Below, one piece after another: positions 1,071 to 22,317 of a DNA stretch of 24,425 nucleotides (its first letter is position 1; each line of letters begins with the position of its first letter). This DNA is from a virus, in the IMG/VR virus record IMGVR_UViG_3300021964_000513, positions 1-24,425 of that record, one strand, 5' to 3'. Both the position numbers and the translations under genes were made by a program. The notes beneath the pieces are model-generated. The model was not told the origin of the DNA. It saw only the letters and a program-made list of their open reading frames with translations, and did not search any database.

Positions 1071-3728
1071 ATGCTCGGCTTTTCACCTCTCGCCGCCGCC
1101 CCTCTAGCAGATGACGGCGCGGTTGTTGTCAATGTCGCTCTGACAGCTGACAGCATCACGACAGGTGCGCCTAAAGTTGGTGATTTATTTACTTACGATG
1201 ACTATGAGGCCACAGCCAGCGGCTTATTTGATAGCATCGCAAGCACCAATAAAACGCTATATAGTGATAACAGGGGCCATAATTCTAGTCTTACTCCATC
1301 CACCGGCTATGTGGCTCAAAGTGGATATTATGTATATAATTTAAGTGTAAATTCCACCGGCATTTCGTTTCGGCTTTACGGTCAAGTCGCGGAGCAAAAC
1401 GCTAATGACCAATGGTCTGTTTCAAGTTATAAACACTGGGCTGACGTTACGCTGAATTGGTCAGGCACTACGGTTATATCAACAACCAACGAAGGCAGTC
1501 TATCAAACTTAGACTTGTCCGGCGAAACAGTTTACGCCCTTGGATCAACGGCCCTCGACAACGCAATTGCTTCGGCGGCAGCAACGGCGGGTGTTAGTAG
1601 TAACCTATATGACTGGATACCGGACGAGGTAACTGTCACTGAGGTTTCAGATGTTTTCCGCGCTCGACTTGCTGGGTCTTCCACCGACCTTGATACTTAT
1701 TCGTTTAGTCAAAATAGCGCCAGCATTTACATCTATCAGCACTATGTCGTCGCTGGTCGATTTTTATTTTTAAGTGTTTATCCAAACCAAAACGATAGCG
1801 CTTTTAACGATAGCAGCGCCTCTGCTAATCCAGATACGGAGCTTACTGTCGCACGGTTTACGCGGTCGGTTCAGCCGCGATATGCCTATGAGGTTTCACA
1901 CGCTCAAGATTACAATCTGACCCCCACAGATGTTATTGCCGCTGCGCCGACTGTTGATGCGCCTAGCATTTCCCATGATTACAATTTTACAGCTACAGAA
2001 ATCACAACCGCTGCACCTACCGTTGATGCGTCCACGCTCACTGAAGATGGCGTGTTTACTGGTGTTGATATTACAGCGGGTGCGCCAGTTGTCGATCAGT
2101 CTAGTATAACTCAGTTGCACAACGCTGCGTTGACGGAGATTACGACATCCGCGCCGACTGTTGATACGCCTGACATCACAGAAGATTACGCTCTCACGGG
2201 CGCTGAGATCACGACCGGCTCACCAGCCGTCGATGCGTCTAGCTTAACGCAGCTTCACAACATCAGCTTCAGTGGTGATATTGTTAGTGGCGCACCGACT
2301 GTTGATGCATCAAGCATTACCCAAGTTCACAACATTTCGCCGACCGCAATTGACGCGGCGACACCAACCATTGACGCCTCTGACATCACTCAGGTTCACG
2401 ATCTCACAGCGACAGAGATCAACGCTGGTGCGCCTGTTGTTGATGCACCGACAATCACGGGCGTAAGTGAACTCACGGCCTCAGAAATTACGACCGGCGC
2501 TCCCAGCGTCGATGCGCCGACCATCGCCCAACTTCACAATATTGGGTTCAGTGGTGATATTGTCAGCGGCGCGCCGACTGTTGACGCTTCTGGAATTACA
2601 CAGGTTCACGATCTTGCATCGACAGAAATCACGACTGGCGCGCCTGTTGTTGATCAGACTGGTATTACTCAGGTTCACGACATTGCTTCGACCGAAATCA
2701 CAGCTGGAACCCCTGTCGTTGATAATGCAGCGCTTTCGCGTAATTACAATCTAGCGCCGGTAGAAATCACGGCTGGTGCGCCAAGTGTTGACGCATCAAG
2801 CATTACCCAAGATCACAGCGCGGCACCGGTTGAAATCACGGCTGGCGCACCGACTGTCGATCAGTCTGGTATCACTCAGGTCCACGATCTCACCTCAACT
2901 GAAATTACAGCGGGTGCGCCGTCAATTGATGCGCCTACGTTTACAATTGGCACACTCGTCGGAGACGACATTACGGCGGGTGCGCCGACTGTCGATACTT
3001 CAACAATTTCTCACGATTATCAGCTAACGCCCGTTGATATTACGGCAAGTGGATCAACTGTTGATGCGTCAAGCATAACACAAGTTCATAACATTACACC
3101 GGTTGAGATCACGACATCCGCGCCGGTCATTGATGCTGCAAGTCTGTCCCCCGACTACAACTTAACACCAACCGAAATCACAGCGGGTACACCGCTTATT
3201 GACAGCGCTGATCTGGATGAGGTCAACAACTTTAGTGGATCGGTCACGGCTGGAACGCCGACCGTTGACGCCGCGACAATCACTCAGCTGCACAACATTG
3301 CAGCAACTGAGATTACCGGAAGCGCCCCACAGATCGACGCGGCATCGATTACTCAAGTTCACGATCTCACGGCGCTCGAAATAACGACTGGCCAGCCAAC
3401 TATTGATGCGCCAAGTGCAGTCGAAAATGTTGACCTGACCGGCACTGACATCACCGGCGGCACTCCGGCTATTGACCAGCCGACAGCCGACACAAATACG
3501 AACAACCGACTGACATCTACTGACATTGACGTGGGCGTACCGACAATTGACGCGCCGACTTTCGGTCAGGTTCATGTCTTAGGGTCGGCTGGTATTACAA
3601 CGGGCGCGCCACAGGTTGGCCCTGCGCGGTTCTTGTGGCAGCTGCAAGTGGTGACTGGTGCGCCATCAGACATCTGGACAGAGCAAGTTGCAGCGTCAAA
3701 TCAAAACGTTTGGACAGACGCAGCCTGA
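1071..3728 (+). CDS. Large tandem-repeat virion protein (tail fibre/appendage-like)
   Basis: This 885-residue protein starts at an ATG with GAAAGG 8 nt upstream. Residues 1-35 contain one isolated copy of the repeat (ALTADSITTGAPKVG). Residues ~36-285 form a Ser/Tyr/Asn-rich globular region with no recognised motif. From residue 287 to ~850 there are about 25 copies of a 23-24 residue unit of consensus EITTGAPxVDAxxITQVHxLTxT. The last ~35 residues are unique (WQLQVVTGAPSDIW). Repeats of this style are familiar in tail-region proteins of marine alphaproteobacterial phages. Their regular Thr/Val strands with G-A-P turns suggest an elongated beta structure, such as a fibre or decoration rod. 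There is no signal peptide or membrane segment. It lies between the propeller protein and the fibre genes, which supports a tail-appendage role, but the function is unproven. Confidence 0.8.
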   Translation: MLGFSPLAAAPLADDGAVVVNVALTADSITTGAPKVGDLFTYDDYEATASGLFDSIASTNKTLYSDNRGHNSSLTPSTGYVAQSGYYVYNLSVNSTGISFRLYGQVAEQNANDQWSVSSYKHWADVTLNWSGTTVISTTNEGSLSNLDLSGETVYALGSTALDNAIASAAATAGVSSNLYDWIPDEVTVTEVSDVFRARLAGSSTDLDTYSFSQNSASIYIYQHYVVAGRFLFLSVYPNQNDSAFNDSSASANPDTELTVARFTRSVQPRYAYEVSHAQDYNLTPTDVIAAAPTVDAPSISHDYNFTATEITTAAPTVDASTLTEDGVFTGVDITAGAPVVDQSSITQLHNAALTEITTSAPTVDTPDITEDYALTGAEITTGSPAVDASSLTQLHNISFSGDIVSGAPTVDASSITQVHNISPTAIDAATPTIDASDITQVHDLTATEINAGAPVVDAPTITGVSELTASEITTGAPSVDAPTIAQLHNIGFSGDIVSGAPTVDASGITQVHDLASTEITTGAPVVDQTGITQVHDIASTEITAGTPVVDNAALSRNYNLAPVEITAGAPSVDASSITQDHSAAPVEITAGAPTVDQSGITQVHDLTSTEITAGAPSIDAPTFTIGTLVGDDITAGAPTVDTSTISHDYQLTPVDITASGSTVDASSITQVHNITPVEITTSAPVIDAASLSPDYNLTPTEITAGTPLIDSADLDEVNNFSGSVTAGTPTVDAATITQLHNIAATEITGSAPQIDAASITQVHDLTALEITTGQPTIDAPSAVENVDLTGTDITGGTPAIDQPTADTNTNNRLTSTDIDVGVPTIDAPTFGQVHVLGSAGITTGAPQVGPARFLWQLQVVTGAPSDIWTEQVAASNQNVWTDAA
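1929..3620 (+). repeat. Coding tandem repeat, ~25 units of 69-72 bp
   Basis: Within the 885-residue protein, units of 23 residues (69 bp), with a few of 24 (72 bp), run head to tail. The core 'GAPxVDAxxITQVH' is kept in most units, and DNA identity is higher between some distant units than between neighbours. For example, the FSGDIVSGAPTVDAS version occurs twice, about 290 bp apart, which points to duplication of multi-unit blocks. The units near the 3' end (residues ~750-850) are the most degenerate. Confidence 0.9.
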
Positions 3729-16483: not shown

Positions 16484-17247
16484 ACGGCTTTGAAAAGTTC
16501 GAGGTCAGTCACCTCAGCGCGTCTTCAATTAATCTCTCCAAGAACGCGCCCGATGTTTGGGTCGCACAAAAACTTGCGAAGAAGAAATTCCCAGGAAGTC
16601 CAGCGATGACCAGAGGCATCGCAATTGAGGATGCCGTGGTTGCCGCGCTGGCAACCGGCAAGACGCTGGAAGAGGCCATTGATGTTGGTCATGCGCGCTT
16701 CGATAAGACTTATCCTATTGCCAACGAAAAGACGACTAAAGAGCGCGAGATGATTGCGCCGTCGATCAAGCTGAGTATCGATGCGCTGCAAGAATATGGC
16801 AAGCCAGAGTTTGATGAAAACGCCGGTGCTTTCGGTCAGGAAAAGGTAAGTCTGACAACGCAGCTAAGTGACAATTCGCTCATAGAGGTCATTGGCTACC
16901 TGGATCTGGTTTATCCAGCGCAGGGGCTGACCGTCGATCTAAAAACAACTGGGCGCATGCCAAGCGTAATGTCACCAGAGCATCAATTGCAGCGCGCCAT
17001 TTACGCGCATGCCAAGGGTAATCACGCTGTAAAGTTTCTCTACGTGACGCCCAAGAAATATCAGTTTTTGGAAGACGGTGATCCCAGAACAATCTTGGCA
17101 AAAACCAAAATCCAAATTCAGCGGCTGAACGACTTCTTGCTCACCTGCGAGAGCGTCGAGCATGCGCTGTCTATCGTCCCGCACAATCCAGACAGCTTTT
17201 ACTGGAACGGCGCGGAAACACTACGGGCCGAGTTATTCGGCACATAA
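16480..17247 (+). CDS. RecB/Cas4-like PD-(D/E)XK exonuclease
   Basis: This 255-residue protein has the ordered motifs of the PDDEXK_1 (RecB C-terminal/Cas4-like) family: an N-terminal 'HLSASSINL' start, motif I 'RGIAIED' with Glu50, motif II Gly139-Tyr-Leu-Asp142, motif III Asp153-Leu-Lys155 (VDLKTT), and the QxxxY motif Gln171-Tyr175 (LQRAIYAHA). No Cys cluster for an iron-sulfur centre is seen, unlike Cas4. Such phage enzymes act as recombination or replication-associated exonucleases. It is coupled to the upstream small membrane protein and precedes the replication genes, so it likely processes DNA ends during phage recombination. The product acts in the cytoplasm. Confidence 0.85.
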   Translation: MNGFEKFEVSHLSASSINLSKNAPDVWVAQKLAKKKFPGSPAMTRGIAIEDAVVAALATGKTLEEAIDVGHARFDKTYPIANEKTTKEREMIAPSIKLSIDALQEYGKPEFDENAGAFGQEKVSLTTQLSDNSLIEVIGYLDLVYPAQGLTVDLKTTGRMPSVMSPEHQLQRAIYAHAKGNHAVKFLYVTPKKYQFLEDGDPRTILAKTKIQIQRLNDFLLTCESVEHALSIVPHNPDSFYWNGAETLRAELFGT

Positions 17248-17263
17248 AACAGAGGAAGGCAAA

Positions 17264-18091
17264 ATGTTAAACTCCAAAAAAATCGAAGTCTACGCAAAGA
17301 CAATAACGCCTGACATGGCCACAACTTTGCTTAAAGGCAATATTGGCAATAGAAATCCATCTAAAAGCCACGTCAATCACATTGCCAAGCAAATGCGCAA
17401 GGGCCGTTGGCAGCTAACGCCGTCACCAATTATGATGACAAAAAGTGGTAGGATTTTAGATGGCCAGCATCGACTTCTTGGCTGTCAGCAATCTGGCCGC
17501 ACAATAGAATTTTCGTTTGCAGTAGTGCCAGATGAAGACGCCGGTGAAATTTTTAAAGTTTTAGACCAAGGCAAAAAGCGTTCACTGGAAGATTTAACCG
17601 GAAAGTCACCTAAATTAATAAAGCCATTAGTTTACTTGTTGCGCGCTGGACTACGTGTTCCAACGCCAACCGTCGAAGACATAAAGCCCTTTCTTAATAG
17701 TGAAATCGGTGAAATTTTAAGCGCTTTTGTTGACACTAAATCTAAAATGAGATTGTGGCGCGCAAATCATTTTATCGCATCGATGGTCGTCGCAGTTTTA
17801 AATAAAGACGTCACTTTGGAAGAGGCGAAAGAAACTTATCGCTGCTTAACACAAGACGACATAACAACTTGGCCCCCAGTGTTCACCGCGCTCTATGTCC
17901 GGCTGACTGAAGACCGGCGGTGTCTTGGCGGAACACGCATAGACAATCCGATATTTATTTGCGGGTTTTATGCGTGGAAGCATCTGCGCCGCGACACGAA
18001 AACAATTCGCATTACAAACGGCTTTGTCAAAAACACTAAAGCTGACGTTTATGCCGCGCTTTACAACATTTGTCCCGAAATTGCGAACTAA
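17264..18091 (+). CDS. ParB/DGQHRL-type phage protein
   Basis: I chose the ATG at 17264, with a strong AGAGGAAGG 4-12 nt upstream, giving 275 residues. The frame also runs upstream to 17162, but only inside the previous gene. The N-terminal ~105 residues contain the ParB-N-like pattern: HVNHIAKQMRKGRWQLTPSP, IMMTKSGRILDGQHRLLGCQ with the hallmark DGQHRL at 66-71, and VLDQGKKRSLEDL. The rest is helical (MRLWRANHFIASMVVAVLNK, FICGFYAWKHLRR). Proteins of this type are frequent in phage replication regions. A nucleotide-dependent or nuclease activity has been shown for some ParB-fold relatives but cannot be read from this sequence. Function unknown. Confidence 0.75.
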   Translation: MLNSKKIEVYAKTITPDMATTLLKGNIGNRNPSKSHVNHIAKQMRKGRWQLTPSPIMMTKSGRILDGQHRLLGCQQSGRTIEFSFAVVPDEDAGEIFKVLDQGKKRSLEDLTGKSPKLIKPLVYLLRAGLRVPTPTVEDIKPFLNSEIGEILSAFVDTKSKMRLWRANHFIASMVVAVLNKDVTLEEAKETYRCLTQDDITTWPPVFTALYVRLTEDRRCLGGTRIDNPIFICGFYAWKHLRRDTKTIRITNGFVKNTKADVYAALYNICPEIAN

Positions 18092-18913: not shown

Positions 18914-18933
18914 AAAAAATGCAGAGCAGAACG

Positions 18934-20847
18934 ATGGACATGCGAGAAGCCATTAAAGATTACACAGAGAGAGGCTGGAAGATTTTTCCAGTAGAACAAA
19001 ATTCCAAGCTACCAGCAAAGCGCGAAACAGGCGTCAGGCTGTCATACCAGGAAGCCACAGACGATCTCAACGCGCTGGTGCCATATTTTGAAAGATACCC
19101 GAACGCCAACCTTGGATTAAATCTGATCGAAAGCGGCCTCGTTTGCATCGACGTGGACGACTACAAGACCGACTGCAAATTCCAAGAGTTTATGATCGGT
19201 AAGGAAATGCCGCCCACGCTCATTCAAAAGTCAGCCAGCGGCGGGACGCACTACCTCTTCAGAGCAGACCAGGTCGAGCAATTCCCTGGCGAAATGTGCA
19301 GCCAAGTTGACATCAAACACAAGGGTTACATCCTCATTGAGCCGTCCAAAATAGACGGAAAAGCGTACACCTGGCAGACCGATGATGATCCCGCGCCCGT
19401 TCCACAGTGGGTGCCACGCAAGGCAACGACCCCGCTGCTAGATAAACCGGCAGAAAGTATACACAGCGGTATACACATCGATCTAGCCAGAGGTGCGGTC
19501 AATCCGCAAGACCTGATCGATCAAATCAAAGCCGGTCACAACTGGCACAACAACATCGTCACGCTCGTCGCCTACTATGTCAGCCAAGGCTACTCAGCCA
19601 GCCAAGTGCATCAAATCACCGACAACCTCACGCTCTCAGGCTGGACAGTCGAGCAAACGCGCAGGGAAGTGCAGACAGCCTTTGATGGTGCCATCGGCAA
19701 GGGATACGCACCAATCGTACCCAAACAGCCCTCAGAGGTGCTTACAGCGCCAGCTACGCCCGAAATACAAGCCAAGGCTCTGTCTTCAATTATCTACCCA
19801 GGTCAGGCGCAACCCATCCTCTCCAGCAATTACCTGGTCAAGCGATGGCTCGACAGATCCGGCACGTCAGTCATCTACGGAGAAAGCAACATAGGTAAAA
19901 GCTTTTTCGTATTGGAAATGTGCTACTGCATTGCCGCCGGTATACCCTGGTATCAGTACAGAACCCAACAAGGGCCAGTCGCATACCTCGCGCTCGAAGG
20001 TGGCCTGGGAATGAACAACAGGCTCTACGCACTCCAGCAAAAATACCAGTGCAAGGACGTGCCGCTTGCTGTTAGGCGCGCGCCGCTCGACATGCTCAAC
20101 AGCGAGGAAGATCTCCAAATCCTCGCCGCCATGATCCAAGAGATCGAAGCGCAATACGGCAAGCTCGCAATGATCGTCGTCGATACACTCAGCCGCGCTC
20201 TGGCCGGTGGTGACGAAAACTCATCCACAGACATGGGCCGCATGGTCAAGATCAAAGACGCACTGGCAGAGCAAACCGGCGCGCACGTCTGCCTTATCCA
20301 CCACTCAGGCAAGGACGCGTCACGCGGAGCGAGGGGCCATTCCTTGCTGAGAGCGGCTGTCTCAACCGAAATAGAATTAACCAAGATGGACGGGATCTCT
20401 TTTGCGACTGCAACAAAGCAACGAGATCAGGAACCAGCTGAGCCATTCGCATTCACGCTCGACAGCGTGGAACTGGGATACGATCAAGATGGAGATGCCG
20501 TCACAACAGCGGTCGTGAAAGCTGCAAGCGCCGAGGATGCGCAAGAGGCCAAACAGAAGAAACGACCAAACGGCAAGAACCAAGTAGCGATCTTCAATGC
20601 CTTTCGGCAGCTGAGAGCCGACAACGTAGGCAAGGCAAATCCTGGCGGCACTGGTTGGCCCGAAGGTGGCAAGTATTGGTGCATCGATGCTGAGCAGCTG
20701 CGTGAGTTTACCAGAGGCCAGATGAACACGCCAAACAGCCGGTCAGCCTACGACAAGGCAATGGACGCGCTGTTGGGCAGCGGCCTGATGGGCAAGAACC
20801 ACAATCAAGTTTGGATAACAACGAAGGAAGGACGAGTAAATGTCTGA
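18934..20847 (+). CDS. Bifunctional primase-polymerase and RepA-like helicase
   Basis: This 637-residue protein (ATG 18934; ATG 18919 would add 5 residues) is a replication protein fusing two domains. The N-terminal ~165 residues are PrimPol-like: DYTERGWKIFPVEQNSKLPA, the metal-binding Asp73-Val-Asp75 (CIDVDD), SASGGTHYLF with His106, and DIKHKGYILIEPS. Residues ~285-490 are an AAA_25/RepA-type hexameric helicase: Walker A GESNIGKS (316-323), LALEGG, Walker B LAMIVVDTL (Asp417), and the RecA-fold sensor VCLIHHSGKDASRGARGHSL. A C-terminal region (CIDAEQLREFTRGQM, AYDKAMDALLGSGLM) resembles a small winged-helix domain. It would open and prime the phage origin. It is preceded directly by a terminator hairpin and overlaps the next gene by 8 nt. 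Confidence 0.93.
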   Translation: MDMREAIKDYTERGWKIFPVEQNSKLPAKRETGVRLSYQEATDDLNALVPYFERYPNANLGLNLIESGLVCIDVDDYKTDCKFQEFMIGKEMPPTLIQKSASGGTHYLFRADQVEQFPGEMCSQVDIKHKGYILIEPSKIDGKAYTWQTDDDPAPVPQWVPRKATTPLLDKPAESIHSGIHIDLARGAVNPQDLIDQIKAGHNWHNNIVTLVAYYVSQGYSASQVHQITDNLTLSGWTVEQTRREVQTAFDGAIGKGYAPIVPKQPSEVLTAPATPEIQAKALSSIIYPGQAQPILSSNYLVKRWLDRSGTSVIYGESNIGKSFFVLEMCYCIAAGIPWYQYRTQQGPVAYLALEGGLGMNNRLYALQQKYQCKDVPLAVRRAPLDMLNSEEDLQILAAMIQEIEAQYGKLAMIVVDTLSRALAGGDENSSTDMGRMVKIKDALAEQTGAHVCLIHHSGKDASRGARGHSLLRAAVSTEIELTKMDGISFATATKQRDQEPAEPFAFTLDSVELGYDQDGDAVTTAVVKAASAEDAQEAKQKKRPNGKNQVAIFNAFRQLRADNVGKANPGGTGWPEGGKYWCIDAEQLREFTRGQMNTPNSRSAYDKAMDALLGSGLMGKNHNQVWITTKEGRVNV

Positions 20848-21133
20848 CATGGCCAGGGTGCGTGACTTGCTAAGACAAGCCATCGACAGCACCGCAAACG
20901 AAGAGGTGATCAGTCTTATTCAAGAGGCGATCAGCTACAGCTACCGCGATTACGTGAAGAAGAAAGCGCCGTGCGAAAGTCAGAGGATAACACGGCACAT
21001 CGCCAACATGATCATGGACGATTATCGAAAGAACCCAAACCAAAGCTGCATGACATTAGCGAAACGCTACAAGGTCAATGCGGGCAGAATATCGGAGTTG
21101 CTCAGTGGTAAGCATGAATATTCAGAGGTGTAG
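20840..21133 (+). CDS. Small HTH protein next to a palindrome cluster
   Basis: This 97-residue protein starts at ATG 20840, with GAAGGAAGGA upstream, inside the end of the primase gene. The N-terminal half is helical (VRDLLRQAIDSTANEEVISL, IQEAISYSYRDYVKKKAP). The C-terminal half holds a probable helix-turn-helix (NQSCMTLAKRYKVNAGRISE, LLSG) that resembles the DNA-binding part of small phage replication or transcription regulators. The first GTAGAAA half-site of the downstream palindrome overlaps its stop codon, so it could be the protein that reads those sites; this is inference from position. The family is not recognised. Confidence 0.75.
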   Translation: MSDMARVRDLLRQAIDSTANEEVISLIQEAISYSYRDYVKKKAPCESQRITRHIANMIMDDYRKNPNQSCMTLAKRYKVNAGRISELLSGKHEYSEV

Positions 21134-21170
21134 AAAACGTAGAATTTCTACGCTTTTCTATTTCTACACC
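21127..21170. repeat. Nested palindrome A of GTAGAAA half-sites
   Basis: An outer inverted pair GGTGTAGAAA (21127-21136) / TTTCTACACC (21161-21170) encloses a perfect 15-bp palindrome CGTAGAATTTCTACG (21138-21152). It contains four GTAGAA-type half-sites (two per orientation) and begins at the 3' end of the small HTH gene. Confidence 0.85.
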
Positions 21171-21185
21171 ACAGCCTGCAAAAGC

Positions 21186-21228
21186 GTAGAAAACGTAGAA
21201 AAACCCTATAGGGTTTCTACGTTTCTAC
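21186..21228. repeat. Palindrome B of GTAGAAA half-sites
   Basis: Two direct GTAGAAA sites (21186-21192, 21195-21201) mirror two TTTCTAC sites (21214-21220, 21222-21228) around the centre CCCTATAGGG (21204-21213). With palindrome A the region has eight half-sites in ~100 bp, the density expected of an origin or a cooperative operator. Confidence 0.85.
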
Positions 21229-21250
21229 ACTGCGCTGTCGGAGCAAGATA

Positions 21251-21439
21251 ATGGAAAGAGTAAAAAGCAAGAATGTTAAGATTGTCGGTTGGCTGGAGTG
21301 GGACTACGACTACGGCGAGGGCTACGTTGTCTACGATGGCTTCGACCGTCTAGGCTGCGTCGATAGGAAGGATGCGCTGCAAGATTACATTCACGAACTA
21401 GATCACAAGTATTACAATCAGAAGTTTCGTGATGGCTAG
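21251..21439 (+). CDS. Small hypothetical protein
   Basis: This 62-residue acidic protein (NVKIVGWLEWDYDYGEGYVV, DRLGCVDRKDALQDYIHELD, KYYNQKF) starts at ATG 21251 with GGAG about 7 nt upstream. It lies just after the palindrome cluster, so it is the first gene behind a possible operator/origin. A beta-strand start and a helical middle are predicted from the sequence pattern. No family is recognised. Its end overlaps the next gene by 8 nt. Confidence 0.65.
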   Translation: MERVKSKNVKIVGWLEWDYDYGEGYVVYDGFDRLGCVDRKDALQDYIHELDHKYYNQKFRDG

Positions 21440-22022
21440 AGGTGCGTATAAAGCCAGAGGAAAGGGGAAGAAGTTTGATCGGCTCCTCAATCCACAGTCG
21501 TCAAAGGAAGAGATAGCAACCGAACTGGCAATAGCTGGCTTCGATAGATGGGTGCGCTACGTCGATCAGAAGTGGGGCGTCGATAGGCTCATCCAACTGG
21601 TCGATGCTGACACGGCTCACAAGTATGGCCAGGCACTGGGGAAGCTGAACGATGCGATCAATGCCAATGATGCAGCCCAGGCACGGCACTGCGCGGATGA
21701 CTGCATTCGAGGCATGATCAAGATGGATCAGCTGGCAGATGCGGCTGGTGCGGTTGGTGCCGATGCAACTTACTGGGAGTTCGAGGTTGATGGCGTGAGG
21801 GCAGCGATCCTCGCTGATGAGGATGCTTGGCCGAGAGTAAGAGCAGATCGTCCTGACCTAGAGTTAATCACACTGCATGAGGTTGGCGTGTATTATGCGC
21901 AGTGGCGCAAGACAAAGCTGGGCGACATGACGGCTGAAGTGAAGGGCGCGTTCCCCAATGCAAAGCTGCAAAGCGTTAGCTTACCGGATGTCGGTGAGCA
22001 TGACGATCCGATACCGTTTTGA
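21432..22022 (+). CDS. Hypothetical protein with SSB-like C-terminal tip
   Basis: I chose ATG 21432 (a GTG at 21429 precedes it directly), giving 196 residues. The N-terminus is basic (ARGAYKARGKGKKFDRLLNP). It is followed by a helical region (EIATELAIAGFDRWVRYVDQ, AHKYGQALGKLNDAINANDA, ADDCIRGMIKMDQLADAAGA), then YWEFEVDGVRAAILADEDAW with a strand/turn structure, and ends GEHDDPIPF. The acidic tip ending in hydrophobic-Pro-Phe resembles the DDDIPF tail with which SSB recruits replication partners. The body has no visible OB fold, so I call it only a protein with an SSB-like tip. Some relatives in phage genomes are annotated as unknown. It is the last gene before the packaging block. Confidence 0.75.
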   Translation: MARGAYKARGKGKKFDRLLNPQSSKEEIATELAIAGFDRWVRYVDQKWGVDRLIQLVDADTAHKYGQALGKLNDAINANDAAQARHCADDCIRGMIKMDQLADAAGAVGADATYWEFEVDGVRAAILADEDAWPRVRADRPDLELITLHEVGVYYAQWRKTKLGDMTAEVKGAFPNAKLQSVSLPDVGEHDDPIPF

Positions 22023-22032
22023 CTGGGACCAA

Positions 22033-22055
22033 GGATTTGCACACGGCGCAAATCC
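22033..22055. repeat. Inverted repeat after the replication genes
   Basis: GGATTTGC (22033-22040) pairs perfectly with GCAAATCC (22048-22055) across 7 nt, and a small CGCG-TGTA-CGCG palindrome (22059-22070) follows. No T tract follows, so a rho-independent terminator is unlikely. Confidence 0.6.
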
Positions 22056-22111
22056 GCGCGCGTGTACGCGAGGCGGCTCCTCATAGCACCGCACATCACT
22101 TCCTATGCTAA

Positions 22112-22117
22112 TATAAT
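22112..22117 (+). promoter_or_regulatory. Possible -10 box for the packaging genes
   Basis: TATAAT (22112-22117) is a perfect -10 hexamer in the gap before the small terminase gene. No convincing -35 lies at 17 bp upstream, so it may be an activator-dependent late promoter or chance in AT-rich sequence. Confidence 0.3.
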
Positions 22118-22146
22118 GCAGCAATATCAATGAGTTAGCAGGTATG

Positions 22147-22168
22147 GTTTCAGAAAGGTTTCAAAAAG
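22147..22168 (+). repeat. Tandem GTTTCA(A/G)AAAG repeat, 11-bp period
   Basis: GTTTCAGAAAG (22147-22157) is followed directly by GTTTCAAAAAG (22158-22168). The core matches the repeats near the integrase (13207, 13236, 13357, 13369), but here it lies upstream of the packaging genes. An 11-bp spacing places the two on one face of the helix. Confidence 0.6.
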
Positions 22169-22178
22169 GGCCGGTTTT

Positions 22179-22223
22179 GGGGTGGGGTAGGCCGAAAATA
22201 CCCCCCCCCCGGGGGGGTGGGGG
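22179..22223. other. C10G7 tract with flanking G-runs
   Basis: GGGGTGGGG (22179-22187) is followed by ten C (22201-22210), seven G (22211-22217), T, and five G (22219-22223). The C/G block is self-complementary, and the G-runs could form quadruplexes. It lies ~95 bp before the small terminase start, a usual position for a cos or pac signal. The homopolymer lengths should be treated with caution, because such tracts are error-prone. Confidence 0.55.
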
Positions 22224-22317
22224 TGCTGGTAAGCTGGGCAGGGAATTACGGACACACATCCGCTAAGCAATGCGTCAGGAAAAAAATTTTTGTAAATTTG
22301 GTGAGAAAGGACAACAA

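Follow-up and report, generated by a model that had tools for sequence, protein, structure and literature searches.

The alpha protein of satellite P4 is a primase-helicase with a C-terminal origin-binding domain and type I iterons, and its primase is of the Toprim type. Lambdoid phages carry type-specific initiator-iteron pairs (O/ori), and in lambda the O gene itself contains the ori. For SaPI Rep and SCCmec Cch2, the summary given in PMC7581432 describes a C-terminal domain that recognises multiple short iterons directly downstream of the protein's own gene. In the PLE of V. cholerae, the DNA-binding domain of RepA and the origin co-vary and swap as a module with the rest of the initiator conserved, cognate RepA-ori pairs were required in experiments, and the origin-directed nuclease Odn is a selective force (PMC8263062). 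The pRN1 protein ORF904 unites Prim-Pol, helicase and C-terminal winged helix, and a required origin-like stem-loop, whose structure is kept and whose sequence is poorly conserved, lies 3' of its gene; the authors compared P4 with pRN1 and pointed to phages of similar layout (PMC4234260). Closely related geminiviruses have different short iterons, which are paired with specificity residues of Rep (PMC12548392, PMC2974675).

Here, a repeat array in a 24,425-base virus record (IMGVR_UViG_3300021964_000513; this whole stretch is called the window) was compared with those of its relatives. The gene content of the window was that of a temperate-type phage (integrase, CI/Cro-like repressors, terminase). 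Judged from sequence comparison, the array is likely to be an iteron-type replication origin, read by the C-terminal winged helix of the adjacent PrimPol-helicase.

Repeat array and PrimPol-helicase of the window

A preliminary description of the window had reported eight copies of GTAGAA/TTCTAC, four per orientation, in about 100 bp, and had proposed a genome-wide count. The eight copies were confirmed at 21130(+), 21139(+), 21146(-), 21162(-), 21186(+), 21195(+), 21215(-), and 21223(-), within 99 bp (21130-21228), with only three further copies in the remaining 24.3 kb; whole-window dinucleotide shuffles gave an expectation of 7.4 ± 2.6 per 24,425 bases. GTAGAAA was the best 7-mer, with seven copies in at most 300 bp against a maximum of four when the 720-bp stretch was dinucleotide-shuffled 100 times; chance was excluded by the shuffles.

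The array comprised two modules, neither of them assigned to a strand. In module 1 (21127..21170), the words ran > > < (degenerate <) <, and an outer pair, GGTGTAGAAA/TTTCTACACC, enclosed CGTAGAATTTCTACG; the degenerate word is a ninth copy, TTTTCTA, at about 21154-21160. Module 2 (21185..21230) ran > > CCCTATAGGG < < around a core palindrome at 21204-21213, and was the part of the array with the most constant layout among relatives. Neighbouring same-strand words were spaced 9 bp. The nested palindrome and the second palindrome centred on CCCTATAGGG had both been described before, and all their parts were found; on comparison with relatives, they are read as the two modules typical of a single, conserved kind of array (>> << and >> CCC^GGG <<).

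The gene of a 97-residue HTH protein (phrog_23243; 20840..21133, plus strand) was inserted between the initiator gene and the array, in the window's clade only. As stated in the preliminary description, its stop codon overlapped the first site, the TAG of the 97-codon ORF (21131-21133) falling within it.

The proposed initiator, a PrimPol-helicase of 642 aa (18919..20847, plus strand), was assigned from Pfam matches and relatives. It contained a Prim-Pol domain at residues 14-164 (PF09250, E = 2.5e-24) and an AAA_25/RepA-like ATPase domain at residues 298-467 (PF13481, E = 2.1e-37). In the Pfam search, AAA_25 was the only match of the ATPase part, with no SF3 helicase domain, and the primase part was of the Prim-Pol (AEP) type, with no Toprim primase domain.

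The C-terminal domain (residues 539-642, coded by 20533..20844; domain about 545-642) was delimited by an AlphaFold2 model, fold matches and identity profiles. It was predicted to be a winged helix with the order a1-b1-a2-a3-b2-b3 (pLDDT 81), and the recognition helix a3 was placed at residues 607-621 (SRSAYDKAMDALLGS, 20737..20781) by the model and by word association. No credible match was found by sequence in PDB or Pfam, and Foldseek gave only the general winged-helix fold (E > 0.04). Structurally, the model came closest to other winged-helix domains, among them the one in ORC1 (Z 9.2, rmsd 3.1, 85 aligned); the fold is a common one and gives no indication of function.

Array words among relatives

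For relatives of the PrimPol-helicase, 299 loci were gathered, 156 of them unique; the IMG/VR contigs among them are partial and unevenly sampled. Arrays were searched for in 720 bp spanning the initiator stop codon, with 100 dinucleotide shuffles per locus. A word array unmatched by any of the 100 shuffles was found in 85 of the 156 unique loci, and in most loci the array near the initiator stop was the strongest word cluster in the entire locus. The arrays began at the initiator stop codon or within about 40 nt of it; in the window's clade they began after the inserted HTH gene. In L080, L093, L233-L235, and L269, the first array words fell inside the 3' coding end of the initiator gene.

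One large group of relatives nearly always had, directly 3' of the PrimPol-helicase gene, an array in which a word of 7-9 bp recurred on the two strands; at its end, inverted words enclosed a CCC-TWWA-GGG palindrome. The words themselves varied by relative (GTAGAAA, GTATGAAA, ACTACAAA, TATAAAA, AATCGTA, CGTGACA and others) and formed at least 11 classes. In the closest relative (L004/L005, initiator 92% identical), layout and place were as in the window and the words were of the GTATGAAA type, not GTAGAAA. The words of L006/L008 were GTAGAAA/ATAGAAA, and that of L009 consisted of A+T only. Roseobacter phages CRP-823 and CRP-831 had ACTACAAA and GTATAAA, respectively; counted over these complete genomes, 11 of 13 and 10 of 11 word copies lay inside the array. 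Same-strand spacing across arrays was mostly 8-12 bp, with a peak at 9-10. An exact IHF-type site stood between the word clusters in 21 of 56 arrays, against 2.5% in shuffles; an IHF-like site was absent from the compact array of the window.

RepA-type helicases of more remote kinship had the same array layout 3' of their genes: Rhizobium phage 16-3 (12 × CGTGACA), Idiomarinaceae phage 1N2-2 (8 × CGGTACA), a Myoviridae isolate (8 × TGGGACA), a Xanthobacter plasmid (7 × CGGGACA), Sinorhizobium (9 × AGGAACA), an E. coli plasmid (6 × AAGTGAG), and Salicola phage CGphi29 (5 × GGGGACA). The region after the RepA gene of Polaromonas pPNAP03 held no significant array. The preliminary description had stated that a motif not conserved in relatives would speak against its reading. 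The word did vary, and the architecture and the pairing of word with helix were conserved; conservation of the word was therefore the wrong test for this array.

Several neighbouring features were also recorded. Directly after the array, the 62-aa ORF at 21251-21439 was missing in L004, L007, L008, and L009, L006 had a different small ORF in its place, and CRP-831 had a PAPS-reductase-like gene close to the array; small cargo genes may insert at this spot. The intergenic stretch 22022-22270, ahead of the gene for the terminase small subunit, contained an exact IHF consensus, TATCAATGAGTTA, at 22125, together with the inverted repeat GATTTGCACACGGCGCAAATC and a homopolymer hairpin (C10/G7); L004-L009 have it conserved, and it may serve packaging or act as a promoter. 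The 309-aa protein encoded at 17162-18091 matched phrog_5931 (E 1.5e-27), with weak matches to ParB-like profiles. The 885-aa ORF at 1071-3728 had many degenerate repeats of the DASSITQVHDLTATEITTGAPTV type and is probably a tail or fibre protein.

Co-variation of the word with the recognition helix

In a set of 63 dereplicated loci, word similarity correlated with recognition-helix identity (r = 0.67), with the rest of the winged-helix domain (r = 0.53), and with the ATPase domain (r = 0.42). Given the ATPase and the rest of the domain, the partial correlation of helix and word was 0.49, a value reached in 0 of 2000 permutations; the partial correlation of ATPase and word given the helix was -0.07. 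The best 12 of about 340 nine-residue protein segments all lay within residues 602-621, and the columns most associated with the word, out of 346, were 613, 609, 612, and 608, in that order. The corresponding residues of the window, R608, S609, D612, and K613, all stand on modelled helix a3 at i, i+1, i+4, and i+5, a single face. In a strict set of 33 loci, this four-residue face gave a partial r of 0.44 (0 of 5000 permutations). The single-linkage word classes merged some related words, such as TATAAAA with GTATGAA, which weighs against, not for, the association.

In two separate lineages, the window group and the L021/L031 group, helices ending in KA were paired with GTAGAA and those ending in QA with GTATGAA, a parallel switch. 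There was one exception: L088 and L085 have identical helices and differ in the words of the central palindrome, and other copies of the L085 word persist in L088.

The 97-residue HTH protein had been proposed as the alternative reader, with the array as its operator or cooperative site, and its gene does adjoin the array, with the stop codon inside the first site. The changes in the word did not track its HTH half: window/L004 and L006/L009, two pairs with different words, each differed at 1 of 45 residues, and 12 of 45 differed between the window and L006, which have the word in common. Arrays also occurred without the HTH gene, which was seen only in the window's own clade. This reading is highly improbable, as it is the helicase helix that follows the word. 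The N-terminal half of the HTH protein, unlike the HTH half, diverged with the swapped cassette between the window and L004. In sequence comparison the word tracks the recognition helix of the winged-helix domain, not the remaining PrimPol-helicase nor the HTH protein.

The permutation tests leave some shared ancestry uncorrected, and for this reason the sister pairs and an out-of-sample match weigh most. In the pairs L072/L070, CRP-831/CRP-823, and L004/window, the ATPase domains were identical at 239-240 of 240 positions, the words were different, and the helices differed at 7-8 of 17 positions; close pairs with a common word had on average 1.1 helix differences. Alignment of L072 with L070 showed a divergent stretch of about 500 bp, made up of the helix-coding gene end and the array, between flanks that were 96-100% identical. 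As this divergent stretch covers helix and array, the domain and the array move as a cassette, and phages whose ATPase domains are almost the same exchange both at once.

The clade with the helix NPRS.YKQA had no array 3' of the initiator gene. Whole-contig scans of its 6 records showed, in 4 of them, a GTATGAA array that followed a RuvC-like gene and lay 5-6 kb upstream of the initiator gene, and 2 of the 3 displaced arrays read directly had a clear closing palindrome of the ACCTTCAGGT or GTGTCTGAAAGACAC type. GTATGAA is the word already paired elsewhere with R...(K/D)QA helices; the displaced arrays carried the word implied by their helix, an out-of-sample match in 4 of 6. In the sister sub-clade (G003 and G006, two partial contigs, helix NPK..YKQA) the array was not found. 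Clusters of TTTAGAA in these two contigs were considered as the array and rejected, as they appear to be coding sequence.

Origin reading and comparison with known systems

The preliminary description had offered iterons of a replication origin for the PrimPol-helicase as one reading. The comparison supports it well: copies of a short word are clustered beside the initiator gene, as in iteron origins, the array accompanies the helicase in numerous phages, and the word co-varies with its recognition helix. A change of GC skew at the array had been suggested as a further sign, and this check lent no support. A local sign change was seen near 20.3 kb in the window, and in the two complete relatives the detrended minimum was at 8.0 kb (CRP-823) and 8.7 kb (CRP-831), away from the array; gene orientation dominates the skew.

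In the proposed mechanism, several initiator copies would bind the 7-9 bp words through recognition helix a3. The words follow one another at intervals of about one helical turn and form inverted pairs with the CCC-TWWA-GGG palindrome at the centre, so that helicase rings could assemble and load on both sides of it. The palindrome would then melt or extrude and be unwound, and the fused Prim-Pol domain would prime the DNA opened at this putative origin. Helix and words change and are exchanged as a single cassette, so that each phage would have an initiator-origin pair of its own.

An operator bound by the same PrimPol-helicase, or by its winged helix, and regulating its own operon or downstream genes, not (only) an origin, would show the same co-variation of helix and word. 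Iteron origins often serve as regulatory sites as well, and the array lies inside the early operon. It stands after, not before, the initiator gene, however, and in one clade 5-6 kb off, after the RuvC-like gene; its reader, as a primase-helicase, requires a place to load; and up to 12 words with a symmetric palindrome exceed the needs of an operator. Regulation by this protein is unlikely to be the function of the array. An RNA element, such as a stack of hairpins acting as terminator or attenuator, or else an RNA decoy, ending the early transcript with pairing kept by compensatory change, would account for the strong predicted RNA fold (z = -7.07) and for the three terminator-like sites (G+C stem and T tract) against 0.6 expected. 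The T tracts of these sites are weak, Rfam gave no match to the array, and all copies switch word together, even direct-repeat copies that do not pair mutually, with the new word fitting the protein helix. Pairing alone does not predict such a joint switch, which counts against an RNA element; this reading is very unlikely, and the palindrome arms could act in mRNA too.

Phages carry clustered repeats for packaging, and the weak ParB-like profile match encoded nearby (17162-18091) would suit a partition site. Yet the co-variation is with the primase-helicase, the array is not adjacent to the terminase in the CRP phages, and a chance repeat is ruled out by the shuffles, so that a partition or packaging site, or a chance or low-complexity repeat, is extremely unlikely.

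If the array is an origin, its diversification may serve to avoid cross-talk with co-infecting relatives or satellites, or to escape origin-targeting antagonists. We lean slightly towards a broader view, in which the phage PrimPol/RepA-type initiators form a large family with a near-modular code: four residues on one helix would set the 7-9 bp word, and repeated switches, by swap or mutation of helix and array, would yield natural orthogonal pairs; the probable driving force is conflict, be it with co-infecting relatives, with satellites or with origin-directed nucleases. Because very close phages switched origin specificity many times, the family is a dataset on how an initiator changes its DNA target. 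The word-helix pairs can be read from sequence and offer a practical rule to locate origins wherever a RepA-type helicase is encoded, in many uncultivated phages, prophages and plasmids. Why origins diversify (incompatibility, satellites, origin-targeting defence) becomes testable with natural pairs in which little besides the cassette is different. A literature search, in which subscription journals were sparsely covered, found no description of word-helix pairing in these phages.

Geminiviruses are likened to these phages from the literature only; they are rolling-circle ssDNA plant viruses with unrelated proteins. The window protein differs from P4 alpha in having a Prim-Pol (AEP) domain, not Toprim. 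With pRN1 it shares the Prim-Pol domain, a predicted C-terminal winged helix and a palindrome (21185-21230) 3' of the gene; the helicase of ORF904 is of the SF3 type and iterons were not found in pRN1, whereas the phages have an AAA_25 helicase and clear repeats. The likeness to SaPI Rep-ori is one of layout and lies in the array 3' of the helicase gene (in the window with one HTH gene between them), the oppositely oriented sets and the C-terminal reader suggested by co-variation. Unlike in SaPI, the AAA_25/RepA-like ATPase is fused to Prim-Pol, the iterons centre on the CCC-TWWA-GGG palindrome, and the words are far more diverse and visibly paired to four helix residues. PLE has a RepA_N initiator with an N-terminal reader, three iterons of about 30 bp and two specificity groups, whereas the phages have at least 11 word classes and the reader at the C-terminus. 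As far as sequences can tell, the layout resembles those of SaPI Rep-ori, PLE RepA-ori and pRN1, and what appears new is the pairing of word and helix at such diversity.
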